This document shows positions 10,610 through 26,368 of a DNA stretch of 64,000 nucleotides, piece after piece. The notes under the pieces were generated by a model. That model was not told where the DNA came from. It saw nothing but the letters and a program-made list of their open reading frames with translations, and searched no databases. The DNA comes from Sphingopyxis jiangsuensis. GTDB lineage: Bacteria > Pseudomonadota > Alphaproteobacteria > Sphingomonadales > Sphingomonadaceae. Position 1 is the first letter of the stretch. Each line of letters begins with the position of its first letter. The DNA lies in assembly GCF_016734905.1 (NCBI RefSeq), contig NZ_JAERPO010000002.1, positions 310,001 to 374,000 of the forward strand, read 5' to 3'. The position numbers and the translations under genes were made by a program.

Positions 10610-10945
10610 TCACTTCACGGTGAGCAGACGATCCACGGCCTGATCATTGCTTTCACGATCCTCGTTGGGCCGGATCAAATACATGGGTTGCCCGCTTCCT
10701 GTTTCAAGCAACTCTGGCCGATTGCGGACTGACGGTTCTGAAGAAAGCGGAACGCAAAAAATTGCCGTTCGCTCTGCATATCGGTGCGACCCGAAGCGTC
10801 GATTCTCGAACGCTTGCAGCGAGAGCGCCGGGCGAATGCCGTTTTCGTCGCGCGTTTGGCCCTCTTCGTCGCTGCGGCGCCAATTGAGCGGCTCATCGAC
10901 CCGGTTGGCAGAGCAGGAGGTGAACTCACAGCCGGTCCGCGACAC
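10610..10945 (-). CDS. Possible hypothetical protein (weak)
   Basis: A 111-codon frame with a GTG start. The C-terminal part reads like a plausible soluble protein (QPMYLIRPNEDRESNDQAV), but third-position GC is only about 60 percent by eye, lower than neighbouring genes. An overlapping plus-strand frame of similar length exists. I do not recognise it. It may be a decayed or foreign gene, or chance. Confidence 0.22.
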   Translation of the reverse strand: MSRTGCEFTSCSANRVDEPLNWRRSDEEGQTRDENGIRPALSLQAFENRRFGSHRYAERTAIFCVPLSSEPSVRNRPELLETGSGQPMYLIRPNEDRESNDQAVDRLLTVK

Positions 10946-10985: not shown

Positions 10986-11774
10986 ATGATCAACCTGCGC
11001 GCGCCAAGTCGACAGAGTCGGTTCACGCTTTTGTGTGTGAGCACATTTATCGCGGCCGTCGGTTCCATCCCTGCTGCCGCCAACGCGCAAGAAAATTGCC
11101 CGGGGGCTTCCGCGCCTAACGGGAAGGTGTTCGGAAAGCGCTTCGGAAAGCTCATGGGAGCGGCCGGCGTGGCGGCCATCACGGGGCGCAAAGCCGCCGC
11201 CAGGGCCGCGGCCGACGCGGCAGCGCGCGATACGGCCGACAGCGCGCGCGAAAATGCGGTCGCGGCGGCAGCCGCAAGCGGTTGCCGGGACGATGAAACC
11301 CCGCCCCCTGTCGATAGTGACGCGTCGACACCGGCCCAAAACAATGCGCGCGCGCGCAAGAGCGCATCGGCAGCAAGCTATAGCCGCCCCAGCGAGATGC
11401 CGATTTCGGCAGAGATCAAGGCGCAGAAATCGGCGTTCGTCGAATTCAGCAAGGTTCGCTGCTCCGATTGCGAAGGCGGCCATGATTATGAGGCGTGGGC
11501 CAGTCGCTATTTTTATTCCGAGCTGCTCGGCGATGCGAAGGCGTGGACGGCCAAGCTCGCGAAGATGGAGCCGGGCGAGAAGTTGAACTGGCAAGGGACA
11601 GAAAACTACGGCACGATCACCATGCGCGAGCAAGCGAAGGTCGGCGGGTTCGACTGCAAAATCTACGATTGGCTGCTGGAAAAGGGCAAAGCGAGCGCCC
11701 GCCGCGAAGGCCTTATCTGTTGGGGCAAAGCAAGTAGCTTCTCCGCAAGCGACAGCTGGGTCGAAGTCTATTGA
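10986..11774 (+). CDS. Secreted hypothetical protein with CxxC motif
   Basis: A 262-residue protein of unknown function. The first 35 residues are a signal peptide (charged start, hydrophobic stretch LLCVSTFIAAVGSIPAA, likely cleavage after ANA). An alanine-rich helical segment of about residues 55-100 follows, then a low-complexity linker. The C-terminal domain from about residue 135 contains CSDCEGG and further cysteines in FDCKIYDW and LICWGK, suggesting disulfides in the periplasm. GGAG lies 7 bases before the ATG. A strong hairpin follows the stop. Confidence 0.7.
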   Translation: MINLRAPSRQSRFTLLCVSTFIAAVGSIPAAANAQENCPGASAPNGKVFGKRFGKLMGAAGVAAITGRKAAARAAADAAARDTADSARENAVAAAAASGCRDDETPPPVDSDASTPAQNNARARKSASAASYSRPSEMPISAEIKAQKSAFVEFSKVRCSDCEGGHDYEAWASRYFYSELLGDAKAWTAKLAKMEPGEKLNWQGTENYGTITMREQAKVGGFDCKIYDWLLEKGKASARREGLICWGKASSFSASDSWVEVY

Positions 11775-11905: not shown

Positions 11906-14122
11906 CTATTTGGCGTTCGACCACCCGGATACGACCACTTCGCGCTCTTCTTCATCCTCATTTTCGAGCATGAGCGTCCACTTGGCCTTGCTGATCGGGT
12001 TGCCGACGAAGATCGAGCGGAAGATCTGTTGTGCGCTGGGGGTGCCGGGCGGGTTGGTCCCCTGGACAGCCCCTCCCTCGTCCACCACGGTCGCTCCGAC
12101 TTTGGGTGGCGCAACATAGGTCAGACCGAAATTGTCCGCGTCGGGAACATCGAACGGAATCTCGATGGTCTGACCCGGTGACAGCTTTACGATCTTCGTG
12201 AAATCGAGCTTCGGCGGCTCTGACGACGTCGAATCCTTGGCAGGCGTCCGGGTGGAGGGCGATCCCCCTTTGCTCGCCAATGCCTCCAGTGCGGCGAGTT
12301 GCCCCTCGGGCGACTGCTTTCCCGGGCCGAGCGCGACGCGCGACTTCACAAAGGACTTGAACCCCGCCTCATTCGCCATGTCCGTGTGGAGGAGCGATTG
12401 TTGCGCGCGGTCCGCGATCGCCCAGAAAGCAGAGGGAACAGTGACCACGCCGTCATTGGGGCTGTACATATAGCAGATTGCCGGCAGCGGATTGCCCGCA
12501 AGGATCGAGAACTCGACGCCCTTGCGGTTCGTATGAGCCGCGTTGAATTGCGCGACCACGCTTGGGCGCAGTTCGCGCAGCGCCTCCATCGAGCGGCCCG
12601 CCGCTTCCAGCGGCAAGCTGATGAGGTCGGCGCAGCGGCTGCCCATATTGGGGGTGCCGAGCATGACCAGATGCTGCACCTGCGGCTTGCCGTCGGGATA
12701 GGTCGGCATCGCCGCATGGATGTAGCGGCGGCTGATCAGGCCGCCCATCGAATGGGCGACAAGGTCGATATGCCAGGCGTTGCGTTCGCGCTGCGCATAT
12801 TTGATATAGCGTTCGAGCTCCCCGGCATTTTGGGCGATCGTATTGGTCGGCCCCAGATTTCCTACTTCGTCGCCGGTCCTCATACGTCCGAATTGCGCAT
12901 GCTGGCCTACGGGAAACGCCTTCCAGTTGCTCGAATGCGCGCCCGAGAGAATTCCCTGCCAGCTTTCCCAGGCCTTCCAGTTCGACCAGAGGCCGTGCAC
13001 GAGCACGAGCGGCTTGGGCGCGACCTTGAGGTTGCGGGTCTCCTCGCCGGCCTTCTTTCCACCGTCGGTAAGTTCGGCGCGGATGCGCTGGGTGATCCGG
13101 GGACGGCCATCGTCGTACCAGGCATAGCCCGAACTATCCCATTTGAACGTCACCTCGCGCTCTTCGCCCGGCGGGACATCGACGGTGATCTCGTCGAGCA
13201 CGGCTTCCGAGGTGCCTCCCGCCTTTTGATCGGCATCCAGATCCTTGAACTTGACTGTCGCGGGCTTCTCCTCGCCGCTGTCATTGGCGACGACCGCGGT
13301 GAACCGCACGATGTTCCCATCGGTCGTGCCGGTCTGTTCCTTGATTTCCTGCCAGTCTTCCCAGTTCGGAAAGCGCATGTCCTCAAGCTTGAACTTGACC
13401 AGCCGCAGCGCGCCGCCGCAGCGTCGCAGGCTCCAGCTCAGCGTTTCGGTCACACCACCATAGCTTTCGGAGTAGCTGCCCGACAGTTGATCGGGCTTGT
13501 CCGGCGAAACGCGATCCGCGCCGCCGGTCGAAAATTTGACGCCGTCGAACCGCGTGGGCATCTCGGCCAGACTGTGGTTCACACCCTTTCGGGGCGTGCA
13601 TTGTCCGCTAAAGCTCGACGATGTCGACCCCGAAGCCGTTCCCGCAACGTCGGGCAACCGCACTCCCACGCGATAAGCGCCATCCGAATCCATTGACACG
13701 GTGACGTCCGCATCCAATCCGCTGCCGCCCCCCTTGCTCTGGCTGCGCGACGCGAAACTTCCCGACATGGCGCGCGGAGTGCGCTCGTGCGGGCAAATAT
13801 GGCGATCGTTGGCGGTTTTGGTTTCGGTCGAGACCGAGCTGACCCCAATGTTGGCCTTCGCAATACTGCTCATTCGATCCGGCCCCTCGCGAACCGAGAC
13901 TTGCGCCGTATATTTGAAGGTCGTCGACCAATTGGTCGTTTCGGTACCCTTTCCGGAAATGCGGTCTTCCGTCTTGGAACTGCTGTTCGCGTGCGAGCGT
14001 GAATATTGTACCGAACCGGTCCAGGCGCGCGTGCATTGGGCGGCCGCAGCCGCGACCGGAAAGGCAGCACCGGACAATAGCATTCCGATCCCCACAGCGG
14101 GCAGGGCGCGTACGATTGTCAT
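11906..14122 (-). CDS. Secreted PGAP1-like alpha/beta-hydrolase (lipase/esterase)
   Basis: A 738-residue exported protein. A signal peptide covers residues 1-28. Residues 30-260 form a cysteine-containing region I cannot assign. An Ig-like (CARDB-type) segment, VRFTAVVANDSGEE, spans about 272-368. The hydrolase domain opens with PLVLVHGLWSNW at 371-382. The nucleophile is Ser458 in AHSMGG, with likely acid Asp557 (SPNDGVV) and base His579 (LLHTDM). It should cleave an ester or lipid substrate in the periplasm or outside. AGGAG precedes the ATG. It is monocistronic, with 880 bases of gene-free DNA upstream. Confidence 0.83.
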   Translation of the reverse strand: MTIVRALPAVGIGMLLSGAAFPVAAAAAQCTRAWTGSVQYSRSHANSSSKTEDRISGKGTETTNWSTTFKYTAQVSVREGPDRMSSIAKANIGVSSVSTETKTANDRHICPHERTPRAMSGSFASRSQSKGGGSGLDADVTVSMDSDGAYRVGVRLPDVAGTASGSTSSSFSGQCTPRKGVNHSLAEMPTRFDGVKFSTGGADRVSPDKPDQLSGSYSESYGGVTETLSWSLRRCGGALRLVKFKLEDMRFPNWEDWQEIKEQTGTTDGNIVRFTAVVANDSGEEKPATVKFKDLDADQKAGGTSEAVLDEITVDVPPGEEREVTFKWDSSGYAWYDDGRPRITQRIRAELTDGGKKAGEETRNLKVAPKPLVLVHGLWSNWKAWESWQGILSGAHSSNWKAFPVGQHAQFGRMRTGDEVGNLGPTNTIAQNAGELERYIKYAQRERNAWHIDLVAHSMGGLISRRYIHAAMPTYPDGKPQVQHLVMLGTPNMGSRCADLISLPLEAAGRSMEALRELRPSVVAQFNAAHTNRKGVEFSILAGNPLPAICYMYSPNDGVVTVPSAFWAIADRAQQSLLHTDMANEAGFKSFVKSRVALGPGKQSPEGQLAALEALASKGGSPSTRTPAKDSTSSEPPKLDFTKIVKLSPGQTIEIPFDVPDADNFGLTYVAPPKVGATVVDEGGAVQGTNPPGTPSAQQIFRSIFVGNPISKAKWTLMLENEDEEEREVVVSGWSNAK

Positions 14123-15006
14123 TGATTACTCCTGTTCCTTGATGCGCGCCGTTCGGCGAACCTTGGCCGCAGACGGCGCGGCGCTATCTGATCGACCGGG
14201 ACCGGCTTCGTTTCGCGAAAACCAGCGCGAACTAGATGTCGAGATGTCCTGACCGGTATCGTCTCGATGCATCGAAGGCCTGGTTTGCCGACCCCGGAAT
14301 GATCAGGACAGGGCGCGGCGACGAAGTTGGATATGAAAGCGACCAAGTTGCCGGCCGACGCTGCGGCAGATGGTTTGCGGCAGAGACGAGACGCTGATTG
14401 CTCGCCTGCCTGATGCGCCCCATCCCTCGCAAGCCCGTGCAGTCAGGGGCGACCTCGAGCGGCATTTCCGTCGCTTCATAGGCGACGCTCATCGCCGTCG
14501 AACCGCATTGGGCGATTTTTTTGCGGTTTTAAGCGCAGCGCAATGTCGCCTGCACGGATGCTGCACAATAACATCCCAACGCCCTTCCGACCGATCCGGA
14601 AATCCCGAAGCCGGGGTGATGCGGCAGGACGGATGCACAACATGCCTGATTTGGAAGGGCCAGACGTTGAAGTACGCCTTTTTTCGCTTGGTTGAGATTG
14701 GCGTTTTCATCGGCGAGCTTACTGGACGCGCCGCAGATGCCCCCCGCCACGCCAGCACACGGCCGCACGAGAGCAGGTACAGTCTCCATGCCCAGCGTGG
14801 GCCCAGGCGCCCAATGACCCGCCGTGTAGCGACGATGTGCATCGCCCGCTGGGCGGCAATCCGTCGTCGCATCACGGCCGTCAAATGAGTCAGGCCGCTT
14901 TCCAAATACAATGCCGGGCCTTCCCCAAGGCGGTTCGCCAGCAGGTTGATGCAGTCAACCGCGCCGATCGGTTGTCTCTTGCCCTTTTTGATGGTTAGGC
15001 TGATCA
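14123..15006. other. Gene-free 0.9 kb upstream of the lipase and the histidine kinase
   Basis: Frames are open on both strands but none has a recognisable domain, good start context or convincing amino-acid composition. The DNA is less GC-rich than the core part of the window. It contains the divergent promoters for the lipase and the LytS-type kinase. It may be decayed coding sequence. Confidence 0.4.
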
Positions 15007-16167
15007 GTGAAACAGATGACCAGGGCGTTTGCAGCGAGTGACGGGGAGCATAGGGCAACTGCCGAAGGAAGGCCGTTCGTCCAATCGCTTTTCGGCGAAA
15101 GGCGCAAGTTTCTCATACTCACCGGTGCGATTTGGCTCTGCTGGATTTGCCTGTACGCCGCCCCTTATGTACTGATTGTATCCCGCATCTCCCTTTATGG
15201 ACTGCTCGGCTTTGTTCTCTCCGGGATCAGCGGATTCATTCTTTCGCTCCTGATTCTTGGCGGCGTCATCCGGACATTGGCCACGCAGGGCCGGCATGCA
15301 ATTCTGATCGTTTCCGCCGGAACCTTGACCCTCGGCGTGATTCAAAGCTTTCTCGACATTGCCATATTCGATTTCGTGAGTGCCTTGGGCAATCTGACGA
15401 TATGGACGTCATTTCCCTATGCTTCGCGCTGGGCCGACAATTTTGCGGCATTCGCGTTTCAATTTTCCCTGCTTGCCGTGACGTTCTGGACGCTTGAGCG
15501 AGCGGAGATGCATCGCGCACGGGACCTTGAACTGCAGCGAGCCAAAATCGCGGCGACCGAGGCCAATCACGCGGCCACCGTCGCGCGCCTTGCCGCACTG
15601 CGCTATCAGCTCAATCCCCACTTTCTCTTCAATACGCTCAATTCGATTTCGTCGCTGGTCATCACGGGGCGGAACGATCAGGCAGAAGAAATGCTATCCC
15701 GTCTCGCCGATTTCTTGCGGGTGACGCTGGAATCGGAATCCTGCGGCCAGACGCTGGAACATGAACTTGAGACAGTCGCCGCCTATCTGGCGATCGAGCA
15801 AACCCGCATCGGAGACAGGTTGGCGATCGACATCACATGCCCGCCCGACCTGCGCGATTGCGAGATGCCGAATTTCATCCTGCAGCCGCTTGTTGAAAAT
15901 GCGATCAAACATGGAGTAGCCGATCAGAGTCGGGTGGTGACGATCCGGATCGAAGCTGCCCGCAATGGCGAGGATATTGTCATTGTAATCGAAGACGACG
16001 GCAGTCCTGGCGCGGTCTCACGCGGCGGGACCGGAATCGGCCTGCGCAACGTTCGCGAACGGCTCAACGCGCTCTATGGCGAACGCGGCCAGCTTGAGGC
16101 CGTCCGGCGCGATGCCGGCTTTCTGTCGATCGTACGACTCCCCTACAAACACCATATGGTCTCGTAA
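15007..16167 (+). CDS. LytS/AlgZ-type sensor histidine kinase
   Basis: A 386-residue membrane kinase of the His_kinase (PF06580) class. About five transmembrane helices span residues 35-165, with no large extracellular sensor domain. A short coiled segment leads to LRYQLNPHFLFNTLNS, where His205 is the phosphorylation site. The C-terminal ATPase has PLVENAIKHGV and GGTGIGLRNVRERL. The frame opens at GTG 15007; an ATG at 15016 is the alternative. The stop overlaps the next gene by one base (TAATG), so kinase and regulator are a coupled pair. Confidence 0.93.
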   Translation: MKQMTRAFAASDGEHRATAEGRPFVQSLFGERRKFLILTGAIWLCWICLYAAPYVLIVSRISLYGLLGFVLSGISGFILSLLILGGVIRTLATQGRHAILIVSAGTLTLGVIQSFLDIAIFDFVSALGNLTIWTSFPYASRWADNFAAFAFQFSLLAVTFWTLERAEMHRARDLELQRAKIAATEANHAATVARLAALRYQLNPHFLFNTLNSISSLVITGRNDQAEEMLSRLADFLRVTLESESCGQTLEHELETVAAYLAIEQTRIGDRLAIDITCPPDLRDCEMPNFILQPLVENAIKHGVADQSRVVTIRIEAARNGEDIVIVIEDDGSPGAVSRGGTGIGLRNVRERLNALYGERGQLEAVRRDAGFLSIVRLPYKHHMVS

Positions 16168-16895
16168 TGACAATTCGCGTCCTGCTCGTTGACGACGAAC
16201 AGCTGGCCATTGACAGGCTCAATGACTTGCTACGCAACCTTGAAGATGTCTCGGTAGTGGGGAGTGCCTCGTCTGCGGCGGACGCACATGAGCGAATTGC
16301 AGAATTGGCACCGGACCTTGTCTTTCTCGACATTCAGATGCCCGGCGGCAACGGGATGGCGCTCGCTGCAGATTTGCCGCGCGATCGGCGTCCGGAAATT
16401 ATCTTTGTGACCGCCTTCGAACATTTTGCGCCAGACGCCTTCGAAGTCGATGCGACGGACTATCTCTTGAAGCCGGTACGCTTCGATCGTTTGCGATCGT
16501 CAATAGCGCGCGCCAAACGGCGGATCGCACTCTCGCGGCCTCCTGAGGACGGCCAGCCCCAATATGCCGATGCAATTTGGGTGGCCGTGCGCGGCGGACA
16601 GATACGCCTGAGCGTCAGTGAAATCGATTGGATCGAGGCGGCAAAAGATTATGTCATGCTCCACACCGGCACCCGAAGTTATCTTCATCGGGCGCAGATG
16701 AGTGCATTGGAATTGCAACTCGATCCGTCCGAACTGATGCGCGTGCACCGATCGAGCTTCGTACGGCTTTCGCTCGTGGATGGAGTCGAGCGACCGGGGC
16801 GCGGGAGTCTGAGCCTCTTGCTTCGCGACGGCGCGGTGATCCAGGTCGGTCCGAGCTATGTCAAACAGGTTATGGATCGGCTCGGCCTGTCGTAA
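16167..16895 (+). CDS. LytTR-family response regulator (cognate partner of the kinase)
   Basis: A 242-residue regulator. The receiver domain (1-120) has acidic residues DD at 9-10, phospho-acceptor Asp55 in VFLDIQMPG, the conserved threonine in FVTAF and lysine in LLKPV. The LytTR DNA-binding domain spans about 140-240 (IDWIEAAKDYV, MRVHRSSFVRLS). All receiver residues needed for phosphotransfer are present, in contrast to the third regulator at 18336. It is translated immediately after the kinase. Confidence 0.94.
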   Translation: MTIRVLLVDDEQLAIDRLNDLLRNLEDVSVVGSASSAADAHERIAELAPDLVFLDIQMPGGNGMALAADLPRDRRPEIIFVTAFEHFAPDAFEVDATDYLLKPVRFDRLRSSIARAKRRIALSRPPEDGQPQYADAIWVAVRGGQIRLSVSEIDWIEAAKDYVMLHTGTRSYLHRAQMSALELQLDPSELMRVHRSSFVRLSLVDGVERPGRGSLSLLLRDGAVIQVGPSYVKQVMDRLGLS

Positions 16896-17374
16896 CTCGT
16901 CGCCTCAGCAAACGTAGCTGCTTCCGTTCCATCGCGGGAAGCCGCCCGCTCTCATGTGCGAAGCGCCACTTCCCATATGCATCTCGGTCGCTAAATCGCG
17001 CCGTGGGACCCCAGAGCGCGCAGCGTTGATTGTATCCGGAAAGTCGGGCGACCCACCGTGGTGGGCCGCCCGTCCAAGCTGGATCAGGGACGATCGAGCT
17101 TTGGATCTTGTTCGCGATGCTTGCCGGAAGCACCCGAAACCGTCGGCTGATCAGATGATCCAACGCGACCGCTCTGTCCTTCTTGAGACAGGGTTTCGCC
17201 CATCCGGAGCGCGCTTGCAGCGCAAATGCGATAAAGATGGCCGCCGCAGGACGACATCGACCAAAGGCGATTCTGGCGTGACGAAAAGCGGTCGCCGAGT
17301 TCGAACTGCTGGCCGAGATGTGCCTTGAACGCGGAACGTGCCGTCAAAGCGGCGCTGTACGTCCAAAACCCCGT
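16896..17374. other. Intergenic gap between convergent LytTR regulators
   Basis: A 479-base gap between two convergent genes. It holds a GC-rich hairpin at 17045-17072 (CGGGCG-ACCCACC, then GT, then GGTGGGC-CGCCCG, with one mismatch), probably a structural terminator without a T-tract. No gene is supported here; the open frames are short and arginine-rich. Confidence 0.45.
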
Positions 17375-18160
17375 CTAAAGTCGGAGCGCGGCGAGGACCT
17401 GATCGTGGAATGCGGGACCGACGGGAACCTTGGCACCGTCCGACAGCAAGAGTCGAAGCGCGCCCTTACCTGGCTTTTCGACCGCGACGACCGATTTGAG
17501 GCGCACCATATGCGATCGATGTACCCGCATGATCACACGCGGGTCGATTCTGCGTTCGAGATCGCTGATCTTCGCCCGATAGATGTGGGTCTTCGTTGAC
17601 GTGTTCAGAAGCACATAGTCGCGGGCGGCTTCGATCCAGTCGATGGTGTCGACATCGATCCGAATGGCGCCCTGCCGATAAGGAACCCAAACGCCGCTAT
17701 CATAGGCATTGTCAGGTGGCGGCTCCGATTTGACGGCGTCCTCGCGCAAGGCCGCGATCACGGTCGACAGTTCGACCGCATGGCTTTCCGCCCGGAGCAA
17801 CGCGATGCGTCGCCGCGCTCGTTCGATGGCAACTCGAAATCGATCGAAACTGACGGGTTTGAGCAGGTAATCTATCGCTTCGACGTGAAAGGCCTCGATT
17901 GCGAAACGGTTGAACGCAGTCACAAAAATGATTTCGGGCCGCCAATCGTTCGCACCGAGTGACTCGGCAAGCTCTATTCCTGACAGGCCCGGCATCTGGA
18001 TGTCGAGGACGACGACATCCGGGCGGAGGGAGGCAATCAATCTGGCGGCCTCAAGCCCTTCGACAGCACTACCCACAAGTTCGATGTCCGGTGTTTCGGC
18101 GAGTGCAGCCTCCAGTCGCGCGAGTGCGAGCGGTTCGTCATCGACAAGCATGACCCGCAT
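17375..18160 (-). CDS. LytTR-family response regulator (second)
   Basis: A receiver plus LytTR protein, about 261 residues from the ATG at 18160, where the conserved MRVMLVDDE begins. Upstream in-frame starts at 18223 (ATG) and 18232 (TTG) would add a poorly conserved 21-24-residue leader. The phospho-acceptor is in VVVLDIQMPGLSG. The threonine in FVTAF and lysine in LLKPV are kept. The C-terminal DNA-binding half (IDWIEAARDYV, MRVHRSHMVRLK) closely resembles the regulator at 16167. No kinase is adjacent on its strand, so it may share the LytS-type kinase. It is divergent from the pseudo-receiver gene. Confidence 0.92.
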   Translation of the reverse strand: MRVMLVDDEPLALARLEAALAETPDIELVGSAVEGLEAARLIASLRPDVVVLDIQMPGLSGIELAESLGANDWRPEIIFVTAFNRFAIEAFHVEAIDYLLKPVSFDRFRVAIERARRRIALLRAESHAVELSTVIAALREDAVKSEPPPDNAYDSGVWVPYRQGAIRIDVDTIDWIEAARDYVLLNTSTKTHIYRAKISDLERRIDPRVIMRVHRSHMVRLKSVVAVEKPGKGALRLLLSDGAKVPVGPAFHDQVLAALRL

Positions 18161-18335
18161 CGCCGGCTGAACGCCGTGCTGCGAAAAACTGTTATAGAAC
18201 AATGGTTGCGCCGGGATATTCATGATCTGCAAGTAACAGAAATCGCGCGGAGCGCCGATCCAGTTGGTCGCATCGGATCTCGTCTTCGTCGATTATCGGG
18301 ACTGATACAGGCGCGCGGAGCGCAGTACGCAATCT

Positions 18336-19127
18336 ATGACAACGACCGCATTTCGCTCAACGGCGAGCGACAGCACCGTAGGAACGGCCGAACAACAACT
18401 AAAAGTCCTTTTGGTCGACGACCCCGCCGGCCTCGACCAACTTTGCGCGATCGCGTCGCCCCTCCCCTACGCGCAAATCGTGGCAGCGGCATCGTCGAAA
18501 GCCGATGCCCGCGCCGCGATCGCGCTCGCAAACCCCGATCTGATCATCGTCAATGTGGAGCTGGGTGACGACAGCGGCTTTGATGTTGCGGCAGCCGCGG
18601 GAACCGCCGAAGTCGTATTCCTGGCATCGTCAGGCGAATTTGCGGCTGACGCATTCAAATTCAATGCGGTCGACTATCTTGTGAAACCGGTACGGTCGGA
18701 ATCGCTGCTCCCCGTCATCCTGCGCGCGCGCGAACGAATGCTGGCCAAGCGAGCCCTGGAAGCCGCGCGGAGGCATCCCGCTATCCCGTCGACGATGCAC
18801 GGCGAAGGATTCTGGGTCAAATATCTAGGGCGCACCTTTTTTGTCCCGATCAGCTCGATAAGCTGGGTCGAAGCGCATGGAGAATATGTCCGGCTTCATG
18901 CGGACGGCCGGGCGCATTTGGCGCGATTAAGAATGAACGATCTGGAAGAACTATTGCAATCGCGTCAGCTGATACGGGTTCACAGGTCCGCCTTTGTGCG
19001 GCTCGACAGCGTGAAGGAAGTCAAGCGCGACGGAAATCGTATCGCTGCCGTCCGTTCGAGCTGCGGCCAATGGGTCGCTGTCGGTGCACGATATGAAAAG
19101 GCGGTTCGAAATTATCTGAGGGCGTAA
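18336..19127 (+). CDS. LytTR regulator with degenerate receiver domain
   Basis: A 263-residue protein with the same receiver-LytTR layout as its two neighbours. The acidic pair (LLVDD) and lysine (YLVKPV) are kept, but the phospho-acceptor position is Asn73 (LIIVNVELGDDSG aligned to VVVLDIQMPGLSG) and the switch threonine is alanine (VVFLASS aligned to IIFVTAF). It is therefore unlikely to be phosphorylated by the usual route. The LytTR domain (ISWVEAHGEYV, IRVHRSAFVRLD) is intact, so it should still bind DNA. It is divergent from the regulator at 17375, and its 3' end meets the TonB receptor gene across a shared terminator. Confidence 0.9.
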   Translation: MTTTAFRSTASDSTVGTAEQQLKVLLVDDPAGLDQLCAIASPLPYAQIVAAASSKADARAAIALANPDLIIVNVELGDDSGFDVAAAAGTAEVVFLASSGEFAADAFKFNAVDYLVKPVRSESLLPVILRARERMLAKRALEAARRHPAIPSTMHGEGFWVKYLGRTFFVPISSISWVEAHGEYVRLHADGRAHLARLRMNDLEELLQSRQLIRVHRSAFVRLDSVKEVKRDGNRIAAVRSSCGQWVAVGARYEKAVRNYLRA

Positions 19128-19183: not shown

Positions 19184-22100
19184 TCAGAAGTTCACTTTCG
19201 CACCCAACCGGAAGTATCGGCCGACGATATTCGGACCTGCCCACGCCGGGTTGTAGCCATAGATGCCGTAAGCCGCGTTCGGATCGAACGGTGCCTTGGT
19301 ATCGAACAGGTTCAGGACATTGGCATACAGGGTGAAGTTCTTCGACACCTTCTGCGACGCCGTCAGATCGACGTTCCAGATCGCCTTCGACCGGCACATC
19401 ACCGGCGTACCGTCCGGATAGGTCGCGGCACCGGCTGCAACCGCGCTTTCGCAATCACCCGGCGTGGCTCCGAAGTCCACCTGCGCGACATGGTAGCCGC
19501 TGGTGAAATAGGTCGTCGCCGAAATCGTGGTGTCACCAAAGGCGATCGTGTTCTGCCAGCTTGCGCGCCACTTGGGCGAACCCGAACAGGATGTGGTGTT
19601 GCACGGGCTCAGCGTTCCCTCATAGCGCTCGGGCGGCTGAGCTTCGCCGGTGACCGGGTCGACAAGTGTCAGATGGTTCTTGTCGAGATACGATGCTTCG
19701 AACGACGTCGTGAACCGGACATCGTCGCTGACGTCGAACCGGCCATTGACGCCAAAATCGACGCCCTGGACAAGCTGCCTGTTGGCGTTGGCAAAGGAAG
19801 CCTGGATCGATCCGATATGTGGCAGGGCATTGGGATTGGCCTGATCGGGGATACCGGGCGTCACGACGAAGCCGGGAATGTTCACGACCCCGTTGTTCTT
19901 GTAATAAGCCGCGAGCACGGGACCGATATTGCTGACGCCGACAATCTGGTCGCGAATTTTGATCCGCCACAGGTCGATCGTGAAGCTGACGTTCGGAATC
20001 GGTTCGAAAATCGCCCCCAGCGTATAATTCTGGGACCGCTCCGGCGAGAGTTCGGGGTTGCCGACGTTGGTCAGCCCGACCGAGAAGGGGCTGGATGCAT
20101 ACGCGTTGTTGCCATGCGCGGCGCAGAAGGCTGCATAGGTGGTGCAAAAGGTTCCGCCGCCCTGCGTCACGAACCCGGTCGTGGGCAATCCGAATGCTTC
20201 GTTGAAGCTCGGAATGCGGAAGCCCTTCGACCATGTGCCGCGAAGCGCGAGTTGCCGCACCGGCGTCACTTTCACGCCGACCTTTGGCGAGAAGTTCTTT
20301 TGCCCGGTGGAATAGCTGTCGTACCGGCCGGACAGGTTGACTTCGAGCTCGTCCAAAATGGGCGCGCTCAGTTCTCCGAACGACGAGAAGACGTTGCGGC
20401 TGCCCGAGGTGCCGACCGCGTTGATCACATAATAGCGATCATAGGGATGGGCATCATTCTGCGGGTTGGCGCTCGGCGCGTCGATCGATTCCTGGCGGTA
20501 GGCCACGCCGAGGGCCGCTTCCAGCGTTCCGCCGGGAAGTTCGGCCAGCGAACGGGTGACGTTTGCGGTTGCCTGCCACAGGTTGGAGTTCGACCGCGTG
20601 ACATTGGTCGGCATGACATAGTCCCAGACCGACTGGGGCGTCGCATCGGGGTTGGCAAAGTTGAACGTGCCGCGAGCGACCACGTCCATGATACGCTGCG
20701 GGATGGCATAGCCGCGCTGCACCCTGGTGAGCTGCACATTCGACGCCGTGAAATCCGCCGAATAACGCCAGCTGTCGCCGAAGGAACCCGTCAGGCCGAT
20801 TGCGCCGCGAAGCGACCGCGATGAGGTTTCATCGGTGGTCGGACGGTCGGGCATGAAGAATAGCTGAGCCGTCTGATCCGAACTCGCGTAGGGATTGTAC
20901 GGGTTGAGGACGCCATTCGTGGCGTCGCAACCGGTACCGACGCCGTTGAGCGTTCCTTTGCCGGCAGCACATACGTAAACCGGCGCGATCACATTGTAGA
21001 CCACGGCACCGCTGCGCGGTGCGGTCGGACGGTCGTGCCAGCGACGAGGTGCAGACGAGGAGAATGTCTGGGTCTTGTAGAAGTTGCCCTGCGCATAGAG
21101 TTGGTGATTGTCGCCAAGATTGGCTGTGAACCGCGCCGAGACGCCAAATCGTTCGATCTCGGGCTGCAGCATCGAATATTCGCCGACCGCATTATAGGTA
21201 CAGACGCGGCCGTCGGCAGGCGCCGTGGCCGATCCGCCTTGCGCGGGATCGATTTGCGCGGCGGTGAGCTGTATGGTGTCCCAGCGTCCGCACCCTAAGG
21301 CCGGGTTCAGGAAAGCATAGCGACCGCTGCCAATTGCACCGCCGGCATCGGTCACGGGGCGAACCATCGTAACACCGGGAACGGGCGCGAACCCGTTAAA
21401 ATACCCGTCGGGGCTCACGCCATTGGGGTTGAGATTGTGCATGCAGGAGTTGGCGGCATTGCAAATACGGCTCCAGTCCGCCGTGTTGAACGGATAGCCG
21501 CGATCGCGTGCCCATAGGGCGTCCTGCTTCTGATATTCGCCGCTCACATAGAAGTTGAAGCCCTGATCGGCGAGGTCGCCATACCCGTAGGTCAGATCGG
21601 CCCGGCGTTCACCGGTGTCGCCACGCTGTGAAATGCCGACCGAAGCGTTGGCAAACAGACCTTCGACCTGCTTCTTCGTGATGACGTTGATCACGCCGGC
21701 GACGGCGTCGGCCCCATAGGTCGACGAGGCGCCATCGCGAAGAATTTCGATGCGTTCGATGATTGCGCTGGGGATCGTGTTGAGATCGACGAAATTGCGC
21801 TGGCCGTCGTCCGCGAGCGGATAGGGCGCCATGCGCAGGCCGTCAAAAATGCTCAGCGTCGACTGCACCGTCAAACCGCGCAACGACACGGCGTTCGCTC
21901 CGGACGCAAAATTGTGGCCTGCGTTCCAACCCTGCGAAATGGTTCCGGCATTGCCGGCGGAGACGCGCTGCAGCGCTTCGGCCGCAGTATTAAGGCCGCG
22001 CTCTTCGAGGGTGGCCGCCGACAGAACGGTGACTGGCGAAGGCGTTTCCACATTGGTGCGCCGGAAAAGCGAGCCAGTCACGACGATCTCTGCCTGAACG

Positions 22101-22234
22101 CCTTCCGTAGTTGCGGCGTCGTCATCGGCCGAGGCGGTCGGCGCATTCTGGGCGCTGGCCGGCATTTGCGCCATCAGACCGAGCGCAGCCGATCCGCACA
22201 AAAGCTTGGCAAAAAGCTTCGTTCTATTCGTCAT
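19184..22234 (-). CDS. TonB-dependent outer-membrane receptor (large)
   Basis: A 1016-residue receptor with a signal peptide (cleavage after PASAQ near residue 29). A TonB-box-like EIVVTGS follows near residue 50, then a plug domain (LEERGLNTAAEALQRV to ASSTYGADAVAGVINV) and a long beta-barrel ending in phenylalanine (GAKVNF). It is longer than classical siderophore receptors and has cysteine pairs in predicted loops, typical of receptors for sugars, peptides or aromatics in sphingomonads. The substrate is unknown. It lies next to three LytTR regulators, which may control it. Confidence 0.93.
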   Translation of the reverse strand: MTNRTKLFAKLLCGSAALGLMAQMPASAQNAPTASADDDAATTEGVQAEIVVTGSLFRRTNVETPSPVTVLSAATLEERGLNTAAEALQRVSAGNAGTISQGWNAGHNFASGANAVSLRGLTVQSTLSIFDGLRMAPYPLADDGQRNFVDLNTIPSAIIERIEILRDGASSTYGADAVAGVINVITKKQVEGLFANASVGISQRGDTGERRADLTYGYGDLADQGFNFYVSGEYQKQDALWARDRGYPFNTADWSRICNAANSCMHNLNPNGVSPDGYFNGFAPVPGVTMVRPVTDAGGAIGSGRYAFLNPALGCGRWDTIQLTAAQIDPAQGGSATAPADGRVCTYNAVGEYSMLQPEIERFGVSARFTANLGDNHQLYAQGNFYKTQTFSSSAPRRWHDRPTAPRSGAVVYNVIAPVYVCAAGKGTLNGVGTGCDATNGVLNPYNPYASSDQTAQLFFMPDRPTTDETSSRSLRGAIGLTGSFGDSWRYSADFTASNVQLTRVQRGYAIPQRIMDVVARGTFNFANPDATPQSVWDYVMPTNVTRSNSNLWQATANVTRSLAELPGGTLEAALGVAYRQESIDAPSANPQNDAHPYDRYYVINAVGTSGSRNVFSSFGELSAPILDELEVNLSGRYDSYSTGQKNFSPKVGVKVTPVRQLALRGTWSKGFRIPSFNEAFGLPTTGFVTQGGGTFCTTYAAFCAAHGNNAYASSPFSVGLTNVGNPELSPERSQNYTLGAIFEPIPNVSFTIDLWRIKIRDQIVGVSNIGPVLAAYYKNNGVVNIPGFVVTPGIPDQANPNALPHIGSIQASFANANRQLVQGVDFGVNGRFDVSDDVRFTTSFEASYLDKNHLTLVDPVTGEAQPPERYEGTLSPCNTTSCSGSPKWRASWQNTIAFGDTTISATTYFTSGYHVAQVDFGATPGDCESAVAAGAATYPDGTPVMCRSKAIWNVDLTASQKVSKNFTLYANVLNLFDTKAPFDPNAAYGIYGYNPAWAGPNIVGRYFRLGAKVNF

Positions 22235-22530
22235 TGACTATCCCTTTTTTCATATTTCTGGTTGGCAACGCGCCGTCACGGGCACGACTCTCCCGCAGCA
22301 AAGGCCCGCACGGCCCGCGCAGCATCGCGGTCGGCCTTCAGACGCGGTTTGCCGACGGCCTTCTGGGGAAAATCGGGTCGATCGAAGACAGAGAAGTCGC
22401 CAACTGTCCGATCTTTGCTTTAAAGCGGCGAAATCGGAGTTACGGCCGACGAATGCGGCGCGGCACAAATGGCTGGCCCATGCCCGCTCGAAGGCGACGT
22501 TCGCCCCAGGCCGATCGTCAGGGCAAGCGG

Positions 22531-23340
22531 CTAGTCCGGGCAGTGCCCGTCGATGTTGACAGCGATATGACAAGCGCCGGCGCCGCGCACTGCCTGGTCT
22601 GCCGCGCTAACACGCGCCCAATCACCGGACCGCCGCGCATCTTGACCATTTGCGTGCCCGACCGACCGGGCCTCTGCCATCGCATCGCAGATGCTTGCGT
22701 GTGCGGATCGATTGTATGCCACACCACACCCGATATCTCGTTCGAACCTCTCGACTGCCTCCAAATCGACCGTCACATCGCCTTCGATCCAGATCGATGC
22801 ATGCGCAAGCATTGCGACCATGGATCGGCGGCGACGGACGAGCGACGCAGTTCCGCCGATCTTGCGACCGGCGACAGTCAGGTTGAAGCGCCCGTCGCAA
22901 TGGCTGAAGGGCACCCATCCCACGTCCGCATCGACACCCGCCGATCGCAGCACAGCGACAAGCCGACCGCAAAATCGCTCGAACGCCGTGGTCACATCGC
23001 GGCTGTCGTCGATCCACGCGTCGAACGCGCTGACGTTGAGCATGCCCGGGCGATGGACGACCGTCGTTCCGCCGCTCGTTCGCACATGGACCGGCCAGCC
23101 GCGCGCCGCGCTCTCCGCGGCGGCGCGCGCAAAGGTGGGTAACGCCGCAAAGCGACGGGTTGTGACGAGGCATTTGGTGTTGGTCCACAGCCGCAGCCCG
23201 CGTGCGGCCGCATCGCCATTCAGCAAAGCCGCCAACCGCTCGGCATCCGCATCTATGGCTTCGCGGCCCCGCCCGGCTTCGATTGCCGCTCCGGACGAAA
23301 AACCTGCAGCAAGCGTTTCGACGGTAGGTATCGGGCGCAC
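22531..23340 (-). CDS. Lipoate-protein ligase A-like protein
   Basis: A 269-residue protein of the BPL/LplA/LipB fold. RTSGGTTVVHRPGMLNVS at 87-104 matches the RRxGGGxVxHDxGNLNxS ligase motif. GRKIGGTAS around Lys160 matches the catalytic-lysine segment KxSGxA. It starts with GTG, 3 bases after the stop of the lipoyl-domain gene. LplA attaches lipoate (via lipoyl-AMP) to a lysine of a carrier domain, so its neighbour is the obvious client. The last 45 residues do not look like the usual LplA C-terminal domain. It could also be an octanoyl- or lipoyl-transferase variant. Confidence 0.78.
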   Translation of the reverse strand: MRPIPTVETLAAGFSSGAAIEAGRGREAIDADAERLAALLNGDAAARGLRLWTNTKCLVTTRRFAALPTFARAAAESAARGWPVHVRTSGGTTVVHRPGMLNVSAFDAWIDDSRDVTTAFERFCGRLVAVLRSAGVDADVGWVPFSHCDGRFNLTVAGRKIGGTASLVRRRRSMVAMLAHASIWIEGDVTVDLEAVERFERDIGCGVAYNRSAHASICDAMAEARSVGHANGQDARRSGDWARVSAADQAVRGAGACHIAVNIDGHCPD

Positions 23341-23343
23341 GCG

Positions 23344-23574
23344 TCAGCCGATGCGTGCGGCCACTTGCCCAGGGCGCACCGCTTCTTCGGCCGGAACCAA
23401 AATCGTCAAGCTACCTGCAGCCGGAGCGACAAGCTCAAAGCTCGATTTTTCCACCATGATCTCGGCAACAATGGCGCCCTGGGCAACGATATCGCCGTCC
23501 GAATAGAGCCAGGCCGAGATTGCGGCTTCGTCGCCATCGTTCCAGAGGCCGGTCGGAATGGTCACGTCAGTCAT
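23344..23574 (-). CDS. Free-standing lipoyl-domain carrier protein
   Basis: A 76-residue protein that is only a biotinyl/lipoyl domain. The modified lysine is Lys43 in MVEKSSFE at the hairpin turn, with the symmetrical SDGDIVAQGAIVAEI strand before it and APAAGSL after it. It has no peripheral-subunit-binding or acyltransferase part, unlike a normal E2. Its ATG overlaps the E1-beta stop by 8 bases. It should carry the acyl or reducing equivalents formed by the adjacent E1. No E2 acyltransferase or dihydrolipoyl dehydrogenase is encoded in the window. Confidence 0.88.
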   Translation of the reverse strand: MTDVTIPTGLWNDGDEAAISAWLYSDGDIVAQGAIVAEIMVEKSSFELVAPAAGSLTILVPAEEAVRPGQVAARIG

Positions 23575-24616
23575 TGGCGGAAGGCTCCATCATATGCTGT
23601 GCGGCCGCGACGATCTTGTCGGCGTTGGGCAGCACGAAATGCTCCATCACGGGGGTGAAGGGCACGGGGATGTCGGGAAAGGCGATCCGCTGCGGCGCCG
23701 AGCGCAGCGTGATGCCAGCCTCGCAGACGCTCGCGATGATTTCGGCGCCGACGCCATAGCTCAGATAATCGTCGTCGACGGCGAGCAGGCGCCCGGTCTT
23801 GCACACCGACGCGCGCACCGTTTCGCGGTCGAGCGGCGCGATGCTGACGAGATCGATGACTTCGGCGGAGACATCGTCGCCGGCGAGCTTTTCCGCGGCA
23901 TCGAGCGCCTGGTGGACCGACAGGCCCAGCCCGACCAAGGTGAGGTCGCTCCCTTCGCGCACGATCTTTGCCTTGTCGAGCGGGACGACATAGTCGGTGC
24001 CGGGCACTTCGGTGATCGACCGCTGCACCGTGCCGAGCCAGCCCATCCCCTGCAGCGCCTTGTGATACATGAAAACGACCGGATTGGGGTCGCGGATCGC
24101 CGCGAGCATCAGGCCCTTGGCATCATGCGCGTTCGACGGGATGACGACCCTGAGCCCCGGCAGGTGGCCGAAGGTCGCATAGAGCGTCTGGCTGTGCTGC
24201 CCGGCATCGCCATATCCGCCGCCGACGCTCGTCATCAGCACCATTGGGCAGGTCACCTGCCCGCCCGAGAAATAGCATTGCTTCGCCGCGAGATTGTAGA
24301 TGGCGTCCATGCAGACGCCGAAGAAGTCGACGAACATCAGCTCGACGATCGGGCGCATCCCGGCCGCGGCAAGCCCGGTCGCGGCACCGATGAAGGCGGT
24401 CTCCGAAATCGGCGTGTCGCGCACGCGCTCGGGTCCGAACTTGTCGAGCAACCCGGTGGTCGTGCCGAACACGCCGCCCAGCTTGGCAATGTCTTCGCCC
24501 ATCACGAGGACATTTGCATCGCGCTCCATCTCCTGGCCGATCGCTTCGGAAATCGCACGCGCGATGGTCAAGCGGCGCGCGGGAGCGGTGGTGGTCGGGG
24601 CGTCAGGCGAAGACAT
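23567..24616 (-). CDS. Thiamine-diphosphate-dependent dehydrogenase E1 beta subunit
   Basis: A 349-residue transketolase-fold beta subunit of the branched-chain oxoacid/acetoin/pyruvate dehydrogenase type. Typical segments are ALVMGEDI-like VLVMGEDIAKLGGVFGTT near 38, DTPISETAFIGAATGLAAAG near 68-87, and a C-terminal domain with LAVDDDYLSYGVG. It pairs with the alpha subunit to form an alpha2beta2 E1. The ATG at 24616 overlaps the E1-alpha 3' end by 14 bases. Sequence alone does not separate acetoin, pyruvate and 2-oxoacid substrates. Confidence 0.9.
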   Translation of the reverse strand: MSSPDAPTTTAPARRLTIARAISEAIGQEMERDANVLVMGEDIAKLGGVFGTTTGLLDKFGPERVRDTPISETAFIGAATGLAAAGMRPIVELMFVDFFGVCMDAIYNLAAKQCYFSGGQVTCPMVLMTSVGGGYGDAGQHSQTLYATFGHLPGLRVVIPSNAHDAKGLMLAAIRDPNPVVFMYHKALQGMGWLGTVQRSITEVPGTDYVVPLDKAKIVREGSDLTLVGLGLSVHQALDAAEKLAGDDVSAEVIDLVSIAPLDRETVRASVCKTGRLLAVDDDYLSYGVGAEIIASVCEAGITLRSAPQRIAFPDIPVPFTPVMEHFVLPNADKIVAAAQHMMEPSAND

Positions 24617-25595
24617 GGGCAAAAGCCTCCTCGGGCTGCGGATAGGCGGCGGCGCGCGCGGCGGCGAATGCCGCGTCGACCGCGGCGCGCGCTTCGCATT
24701 CGGCCTTGTCGAGCTCGGCGCCCTCGAAGCCCTCGGACAAGAGGCGGGCGCGATAGGCGGGGATCGGGTCTTCCGCCTTCAACCGATCGACCTCGCCTTC
24801 GGGGCGATAGCCCTCGGCATCACCCATGAAATGCCCTTCGAGTCGGCAGGTTTCGATCTCGATCAGCGACGGCCCCTCGCCGCGCCGCGCGCGCGCGATG
24901 GCTTCGCCCGCCACGCGGTGCACCGCATCGGCATCATTGCCCGGCACGAAATGGCCGGGCATCGCATAGGCGGCGGCGCGGTCCGAATTGCGTTCGACCG
25001 CGGTGCAATCGCGCTTCGCGACCGAAATGCCATAGCTATTGTCCTCGATGACGAAGATCGCCGGGACTTTCCACACCGATGCAAGGTTGAGCGCCTCGTG
25101 GAACGCCCCCTGATTGGCGGCGCCCTCGCCCAGAAAGGCGACGGCGACATGGTCCTCGCCGCGCAGCTTGCTCGCCAATGCCGCGCCGACGGCGGGGCCA
25201 AGGCCTTGCGCGATAATGCCCGAACAGGCGAAATTCACCCGCGCGTCGAACAGGTGCATATGTCCGCCGCGCCCGCCCGACAGGCCCGAGGCCTTGCCGA
25301 ATATCTCTGCCGCCATGGCGTCGAGGTCGACACCCTTGGCGATTGCGACATGGTGCGGGCGGTGCGTCGCGGTGACCGTGTCGCCGGGACGCAAATGCGC
25401 GCACACGCCGACCGCGCAGGGCTCCTGCCCGTCAGACAGGTGCATCTCGCCCGGCAGCGGCCCCTTCGCCATGTTGAACACCGGCGTTTTCCCTTCGAAA
25501 TAGGCGGGCTTGATCAGCGCCTCGAAATGCCGGCTCTTGACCATCGTGGCGTACATCCACAGCCGGTCGCTGCGATTGCTCGGTGTACCGCTCAT
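24603..25595 (-). CDS. Thiamine-diphosphate-dependent dehydrogenase E1 alpha subunit
   Basis: A 330-residue alpha subunit. The ThDP motif reads GEGAANQG...IEDNSYG near 142-174, with Glu where most family members have Asp (GDG). Phosphorylation-loop-like RPHHVAIAKG and GGRGGHMHLFD are typical of acetoin/pyruvate E1-alpha. The start chosen is the ATG at 25595, which overlaps the SDR stop as ATGA. The E1 alpha-beta pair decarboxylates or cleaves a 2-oxo compound and acylates a lipoyl group. The only lipoyl carrier nearby is the 76-residue protein two genes downstream. Confidence 0.9.
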   Translation of the reverse strand: MSGTPSNRSDRLWMYATMVKSRHFEALIKPAYFEGKTPVFNMAKGPLPGEMHLSDGQEPCAVGVCAHLRPGDTVTATHRPHHVAIAKGVDLDAMAAEIFGKASGLSGGRGGHMHLFDARVNFACSGIIAQGLGPAVGAALASKLRGEDHVAVAFLGEGAANQGAFHEALNLASVWKVPAIFVIEDNSYGISVAKRDCTAVERNSDRAAAYAMPGHFVPGNDADAVHRVAGEAIARARRGEGPSLIEIETCRLEGHFMGDAEGYRPEGEVDRLKAEDPIPAYRARLLSEGFEGAELDKAECEARAAVDAAFAAARAAAYPQPEEAFAHVFA

Positions 25596-26368
25596 CGAGC
25601 GACCCACCCGCCGTCGATCACCAGCTCGATTCCGGTAACGAACCGCGCCTCGTCGCTGGCCAGATAGACCGCCCCCATGGCGATATCCTCCGGCGCACCG
25701 ACCGCATTGAGCGGACAGAGCGCTGCGACCGCGCCCCAGGGATCATCCTCGGGGATCGAGCCTTCGCGCACCCAGCCTTCGACGGCGAGTTCGAGCATCG
25801 GGGTGCGGATGCAGCCGGGATGGATCGAGTTGCACCGGATCGGCAGCGCGTGCGCCGCCCATTCAATCGCAAGGCTCTTGGTCATGTGCCGGACCGCGCC
25901 TTTCGACGTGTTGTATGCAAGCTGGTCGGGATATCCGACGAGCCCCGCGATCGACGAGATGTTGACGACGCTTGCCGGCGCCCCCGCCGTGCCGCCGCTC
26001 GCCAGCAAGGGTTGCAGCGTGCGGCAACCGAGAAACAGGCCGTCGACATTGACCGCCATCACCGACCGCCAGTCGGACAGGCTGTGGTCGGTCATCGGCT
26101 TGACGAGCTCGACGCCGGCATTGTTGACGAGGATCGACAGCGCAGACCCGATGCGGTCGGCGGCAGCTTTCCAGGCTTCTTCGCGCGTCACGTCGAGCGC
26201 AAGCGGCTCGGCGCCGATTTCGGCGGCCAGCGCTTCGACGCCGGCGACGTTGATATCGGCGGCGAATATCGTTGCGCCCTCGGCCGCCATGGCGCGGGCA
26301 ATGCCTGCCCCAATTCCCTGCGCCGCGCCGGTCACCAGCGCAATCTTGCCTTTCAGCCTGTCGGCCAT
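25592..26368 (-). CDS. Short-chain dehydrogenase/reductase
   Basis: A 258-residue classical SDR. It has the cofactor motif TGAAQGIG at 14-21, NNAG near 88, a catalytic serine in VVNISSIAG and YNTSK for the Tyr-Lys pair. ADIN at the end of beta-2 favours NAD(H). Enzymes of this type interconvert secondary alcohols and ketones, including acetoin/diacetyl. It is the first structural gene after the AraC regulator and overlaps E1-alpha, so it probably prepares the E1 substrate. Confidence 0.9.
   Translation of the reverse strand: MADRLKGKIALVTGAAQGIGAGIARAMAAEGATIFAADINVAGVEALAAEIGAEPLALDVTREEAWKAAADRIGSALSILVNNAGVELVKPMTDHSLSDWRSVMAVNVDGLFLGCRTLQPLLASGGTAGAPASVVNISSIAGLVGYPDQLAYNTSKGAVRHMTKSLAIEWAAHALPIRCNSIHPGCIRTPMLELAVEGWVREGSIPEDDPWGAVAALCPLNAVGAPEDIAMGAVYLASDEARFVTGIELVIDGGWVAR

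Follow-up and report, generated by a model that had tools for sequence, protein, structure and literature searches.

The locus described here raises the question of how a DNA-binding regulator is controlled when its receiver domain has Asn in place of the phospho-acceptor Asp. Receivers without any one of the five active-site residues (DD, D, T and K) are termed pseudo-receivers and make up ∼6% of the bacterial receivers in a representative set, those without the Asp being called aspartate-less (PMC12632262). At the acceptor Asp, 16% of substitutions are to Asn (PMC4395418). The on/off switching of pseudo-receivers has been called an open question in a review whose text makes no mention of LytTR regulators (PMC12632262), and a literature search combining LytTR with Sphingomonadaceae found nothing. 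In the 64 000-nucleotide stretch of Sphingopyxis jiangsuensis DNA analysed here (the window), a first-pass annotation drew attention to a LytTR regulator of this kind, here named N3, next to a histidine kinase and two further LytTR regulators, RR1 and RR2.

Receiver domain and phosphorylation pocket

The gene for N3 lies at 18336..19127 on the forward strand, as first annotated, and encodes 263 residues in a frame that begins with ATG and contains no internal stops. Its receiver domain (residues 24–125; 18405..18710, forward strand) scores 34 bits against Pfam Response_reg, above the cut-off, with Asn and Ala standing for D and T, and a LytTR DNA-binding domain (residues 166–261; 18831..19118, forward strand) follows with 63 bits against Pfam LytTR. 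The AlphaFold2 model (mean pLDDT 81.8) displays good receiver and LytTR folds and has full-length ComE (4CBV) as its closest structural match; the top NCBIfam match is BtsR, with a score far under the BtsR cut-off.

In an alignment of N3 with RR1, RR2 and seven other homologues, the column of the acceptor Asp corresponds to Asn73 (codon AAT, 18552..18554, forward strand) and that of the switch Thr/Ser to Ala97 (codon GCA, 18624..18626, forward strand), which bears out both substitutions as the first-pass annotation had read them. In the model, β3 ends with residue 73 and β4 with residue 97, as is canonical for these two positions. No other Asp of N3 aligns with the acceptor; such an Asp would have spoken against the annotation. 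D28, D29 and K117 are retained, codon 98 at the T+1 position is TCG (Ser) and the Pro at D+4 is gone. With the phosphorylation-site Asp absent, N3 is by its sequence an aspartate-less pseudo-receiver under the published definitions, and its combination of a receiver with a LytTR domain carrying the RxHRS core places it in the LytTR family.

LytTR regulators gathered from relatives of the genome were aligned, giving 105 sequences. The acceptor column holds Asp in 104 of them, with N3 the sole exception among the genomes sampled, and the switch column holds Thr in 102, Ser in two and Ala in N3. Of 38 highly conserved positions in the receiver, N3 is off consensus at 16, and of 18 in the LytTR domain at two; the corresponding counts are 1/38 and 0/18 for RR1 and 2/38 and 2/18 for RR2. 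Ranked by how far the receiver has diverged in comparison with the LytTR domain, N3 is first of the 105. The β3–α3 loop has lost five of seven conserved positions and the α3–β4 segment four of six (together nine of 13), and in α4–β5–α5, the usual dimer face, just three of 14 are changed. Judged from these positions, the phosphorylation pocket of N3 is selectively lost, with the dimer face mostly kept and the LytTR core kept. The loss of phospho-control implied by the first-pass annotation is strongly supported, and N3 most likely cannot accept a phosphoryl group from the kinase.

Two explanations that would leave the receiver functional are weighed here. It is highly improbable that Asn73 is a sequencing or assembly error: AAT and GAT differ by one base, but many more pocket positions are altered too, and the alteration of several pocket segments together argues against such an error. 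Very unlikely, if somewhat less so, is a receiver that is still controlled, whether by a ligand, by conversion of Asn73 to Asp through deamidation or by phosphorylation of a different residue. The remaining DD and K could be read in this way, and an Asn-to-Asp reversion is on record for a receiver with Asn at this site (PMC4395418). However, with the switch Thr missing, Ser at T+1 and no Pro at D+4, regaining the Asp would not bring back the switch; another residue for phosphorylation is disfavoured by the alignment described above, and a ligand pocket was not identified. The suggestion of ligand binding made in the first-pass annotation has nothing in its favour.

DNA-binding domain

The RxHRS core is complete in N3 (R214, H216, R217 and S218). 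Residues 181–183 are His-Gly-Glu, where Ala-Arg/Lys-Asp is usual, and residues 250–252 are Gly-Ala-Arg, where Gly-Pro-Ser/Asn is usual; the usual residues show little or no variation among 45 RR1-like proteins and occur at both loops in RR1 and RR2 (with Ala for Ser at 252 in RR2). Alignment with AgrA, which contacts DNA through His169, Asn201 and Arg233, predicts that residues 181–183 lie at or beside a DNA-reading loop, and residues 250–252 are assigned to a predicted reading loop by analogy with the arginine pair of AlgR. The earlier description of the DNA-binding domain as intact therefore holds for the fold and the RxHRS core, but not for these two segments. N3 may read a different or degenerate DNA site, and its altered reading loops make simple competition with RR1 and RR2 for the same sites less likely.

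Kinase cluster and gene neighbourhood

A LytS-type membrane histidine kinase with His_kinase and HATPase_c domains (15007..16167, forward strand) adjoins RR1 (16167..16895, forward strand), and RR2 (17375..18232, reverse strand) is divergent from N3. Both regulators have complete receivers by Pfam and alignment, in agreement with the first-pass annotation, and both have counterparts at relatives' loci. Around them lie a TonB-dependent receptor (19184..22234, reverse strand; Pfam), a probable target; an esterase/lipase-like protein that is predicted to be exported (11906..14122, reverse strand; Pfam DUF676/DUF7379) and is linked to the kinase–RR1 pair in many relatives; and a protein predicted to be secreted that matched no family (10986..11774, forward strand), also linked to this pair in relatives.

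The genome contains five LytTR genes but only three kinases of the LytS type, and of the latter the two outside this cluster each adjoin a LytTR gene of their own. There is no further unpaired LytS kinase in the genome, so that RR1, RR2 and N3 share the kinase at 15007 or else none of the LytS type is theirs alone. Third-position GC is 0.64–0.67 for the kinase and the three LytTR genes (15007–19127) and higher, 0.70–0.86, for neighbouring genes. Beside the TonB receptor, a row of genes at 22531–26368 on the reverse strand (lipoate-ligase-like, dehydrogenase E1 β and α, SDR) resembles an α-keto acid or acetoin dehydrogenase cluster.

The grouping of all three regulator genes with one kinase is compatible with a model in which N3 acts mainly as a partner of RR1, RR2 or both in mixed dimers, whose formation damps or redirects the phosphorylation-dependent activity of the two regulators. 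The largely retained dimer face keeps heterodimers possible, and there are precedents elsewhere: CmrR–CmrT heterodimers have been detected in Clostridioides difficile, with unclear relevance there (PMC12548384), and genes in Streptomyces are regulated by WhiI–BldM heterodimers (PMC12632262). Against this, N3 is only 31–36% identical to RR1 and RR2 and, given this low identity and the different reading loops, a dimer of N3 with either would require a half-matched site. We regard mixed dimers as the main mode of action as a possible but less probable reading than the one developed below.

Origin of N3

No orthologue of N3 was found in samples of 80 genus, 397 family, 396 order and 385 class genomes (overlapping sets), nor in the genome contigs and plasmids that were also searched. 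The top matches are 35–41% identical and, among the loci for which DNA was fetched, are nearer to RR1 than to N3; they were rejected as orthologues on this account. In the tree, N3 stands next to RR1+RR2 at the end of a long branch (1.5 substitutions per site); support for this position is weak and no firm sister emerges. N3 is a relative of the RR1/RR2 group. Acquisition from elsewhere finds no support, the base composition of N3 being like that of RR1 and RR2.

In one relative (L143) the TonB receptor (82% identical) is contiguous with the kinase and RR1, and RR2 and N3 are absent; in two others (L132 and L136) a kinase, an RR2 homologue (56–57%) and a TonB receptor are about 10 kb apart. 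The arrangement in the window looks like the L143 type and the L132/L136 type combined, with N3 added. At another locus (L029, G043:C19:197769-198572), the match to a LytTR homologue runs through two in-frame TGA codons and the gene is apparently broken.

The long branch and the missing orthologues could also be taken to mark N3 as a redundant duplicate on which selection has relaxed and which is heading for loss. This is unlikely in our judgement: the 263-codon frame is intact, the base composition resembles that of RR1 and RR2, and it is mainly the pocket that has been lost while the LytTR core and dimer face are kept, which is not what uniform decay would produce.

Putative LytTR operators

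A direct repeat of 21-bp period is common to the TonB-receptor promoters of four species, which otherwise have little similarity; their full-length alignment gave nothing else that was informative. A typical LytTR operator consists of 9-bp direct repeats spaced by ∼12 bp (PMC6193735, PMC11347149), and the 21-bp-period repeat, present upstream of N3 and of three neighbouring genes, has this geometry. From sequence, the repeat is predicted to be the binding site of RR1 and RR2.

Promoter comparison located the putative operator of the TonB receptor (22426..22453, reverse strand), which is conserved in the three other species. A weight matrix built from the four TonB-receptor promoter sites alone was run over both strands of the 64-kb window. 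Its first-ranked match (10844) lies upstream of the secreted-protein gene, the second (22424) is the TonB-receptor training site, the third and fourth are elsewhere in the window outside the kinase cluster, the fifth (18264) is in the RR2/N3 intergenic region and directed towards N3, and the sixth (14317) is upstream of the lipase-like gene. Pattern searches mark the corresponding putative operators at 10844..10871 (forward strand; secreted-protein gene) and, together with the matrix, at 14319..14346 (reverse strand; lipase-like gene) and 18264..18291 (forward strand; N3). The last of these, TTGGTCG-N14-TTCGTCG, lies 44 bp before the start codon of N3, and ∼0.1 matches scoring as high would be expected per 64 kb. 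Its first half-site contains a G, the CT that flanks the best sites is absent, and this operator has been seen in one genome.

In the 3.13-Mb genome, the strict form of the repeat occurs twice, both times in this cluster, and its reversed control also occurs twice. The pattern TTSGTCG-N14-TTCGYCG has eight copies, four of them within 12 kb around the kinase, and its reversed control none, counts that are partly circular as the pattern was chosen after the four sites had been seen. Each of the four cluster copies faces its nearest downstream gene. As independent support, the best matrix scores at 15 RR1 loci of other species exceed those at 36 control loci (medians 17.7 versus 15.2; rank test, p = 1.4e-4), the control loci being somewhat shorter on average. 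The direct repeat is the top match at many RR1 loci of other species, and matches in relatives lie upstream of the secreted-protein and lipase-like homologues and near the kinase start.

In many relatives (L140–L151) the repeat is found near the kinase start and again a few bases past the RR1 stop. These positions suggest autoregulation; upstream of the window's own kinase no operator was found, the best score being 7.6 bits. A further copy in the genome, at G000:C2:917167-917194 on the reverse strand (L165), is ∼2.3 kb from a second kinase–LytTR pair (C2:919448-920868) and is possibly a cross-regulated site. The promoters of more distant TonB-receptor paralogues at three loci (L133, L134 and L135) are without the repeat but have a conserved TTGCAAATACGTCACAAT element in common, which suggests a different regulator.

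Functional implications

Of the options put forward by the first-pass annotation, namely constitutive action, ligand binding and heterodimerization, sequence alone cannot single one out, but the putative operator upstream of N3 yields a more specific version of the first. With the switch lost, the DNA-binding part kept and an apparent control site of its partners in front of the gene, N3 is probably switched by the amount that is made. Since the putative site 44 bp upstream is of the RR1/RR2 type, the kinase and the intact regulators could control this amount. We propose, with about an even chance of being right, that they do set the amount of N3 and that N3 works without phosphorylation as a second-tier regulator of the locus. 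The kinase would phosphorylate RR1 and probably also RR2, which are predicted to bind the repeat upstream of the TonB-receptor, lipase-like and secreted-protein genes and of N3, and N3 would then be produced in proportion to the signal. N3 itself would dimerize unphosphorylated and bind DNA through its somewhat changed reading loops, its activity would be set by its amount, and its role could be feed-forward or feedback. More speculatively, and with rather less confidence than in the proposal as a whole, the locus may form a two-tier circuit in which one kinase, acting through RR1~P and RR2~P, turns on a phosphorylation-blind paralogue with altered loops and partly different sites, converting a transient phospho-signal into a slower one encoded in protein amount.

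New here is the direct repeat TTSGTCG-N14-TTCGYCG upstream of the TonB-receptor, lipase-like and secreted-protein genes and of N3. Its conservation allows a first prediction of the regulon of a kinase–LytTR pair that is widespread in this bacterial family, with TonB receptor, lipase-like protein and secreted protein as members. With intact paralogues and a single kinase beside the pseudo-receiver, and a predicted operator in the promoter of the pseudo-receiver gene itself, the N3 locus makes the question of pseudo-receiver switching testable.

Comparison with known systems

N3 shares its domain order and fold, and its putative operator the direct-repeat geometry, with regulators of the AgrA, ComE and BtsR type, which, unlike N3, have a phosphorylatable Asp. 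AlgR from Pseudomonas aeruginosa is likewise a LytTR regulator, but its natural receiver is normal; its laboratory variant D54N, which mimics the natural Asn of N3, cannot be phosphorylated, abolishing phosphotransfer and functions dependent on phosphorylation (PMC4064291), and phosphorylation-independent activity of AlgR is also in the literature. RitR from Streptococcus pneumoniae (aspartate-less receiver, Asn53; PMC4395418) is, like N3, a DNA-binding regulator with Asn at the acceptor, but its pocket contains Glu9, Lys10 and Asp81, whereas N3 has DD and K, a LytTR domain and a place in a kinase/LytTR cluster.

The kind of protein that N3 represents is already known, and its nearest analogue is the CmrRST system of C. 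difficile, in which the pseudo-receiver CmrT, the kinase CmrS and the intact regulator CmrR are encoded together (PMC12548384, PMC12632262), as are the three corresponding parts here. CmrR, the intact one, binds in front of its gene cluster (PMC12548384), and the predicted operator would be the counterpart at the N3 locus. CmrR and CmrT belong to the OmpR family and are encoded in one operon, whereas N3 belongs to the LytTR family, is separately promoted and divergent from RR2, and has two intact regulators beside it. By analogy, the N3 locus would work like CmrRST while not being a member of that system, from which it differs in protein family and gene order.
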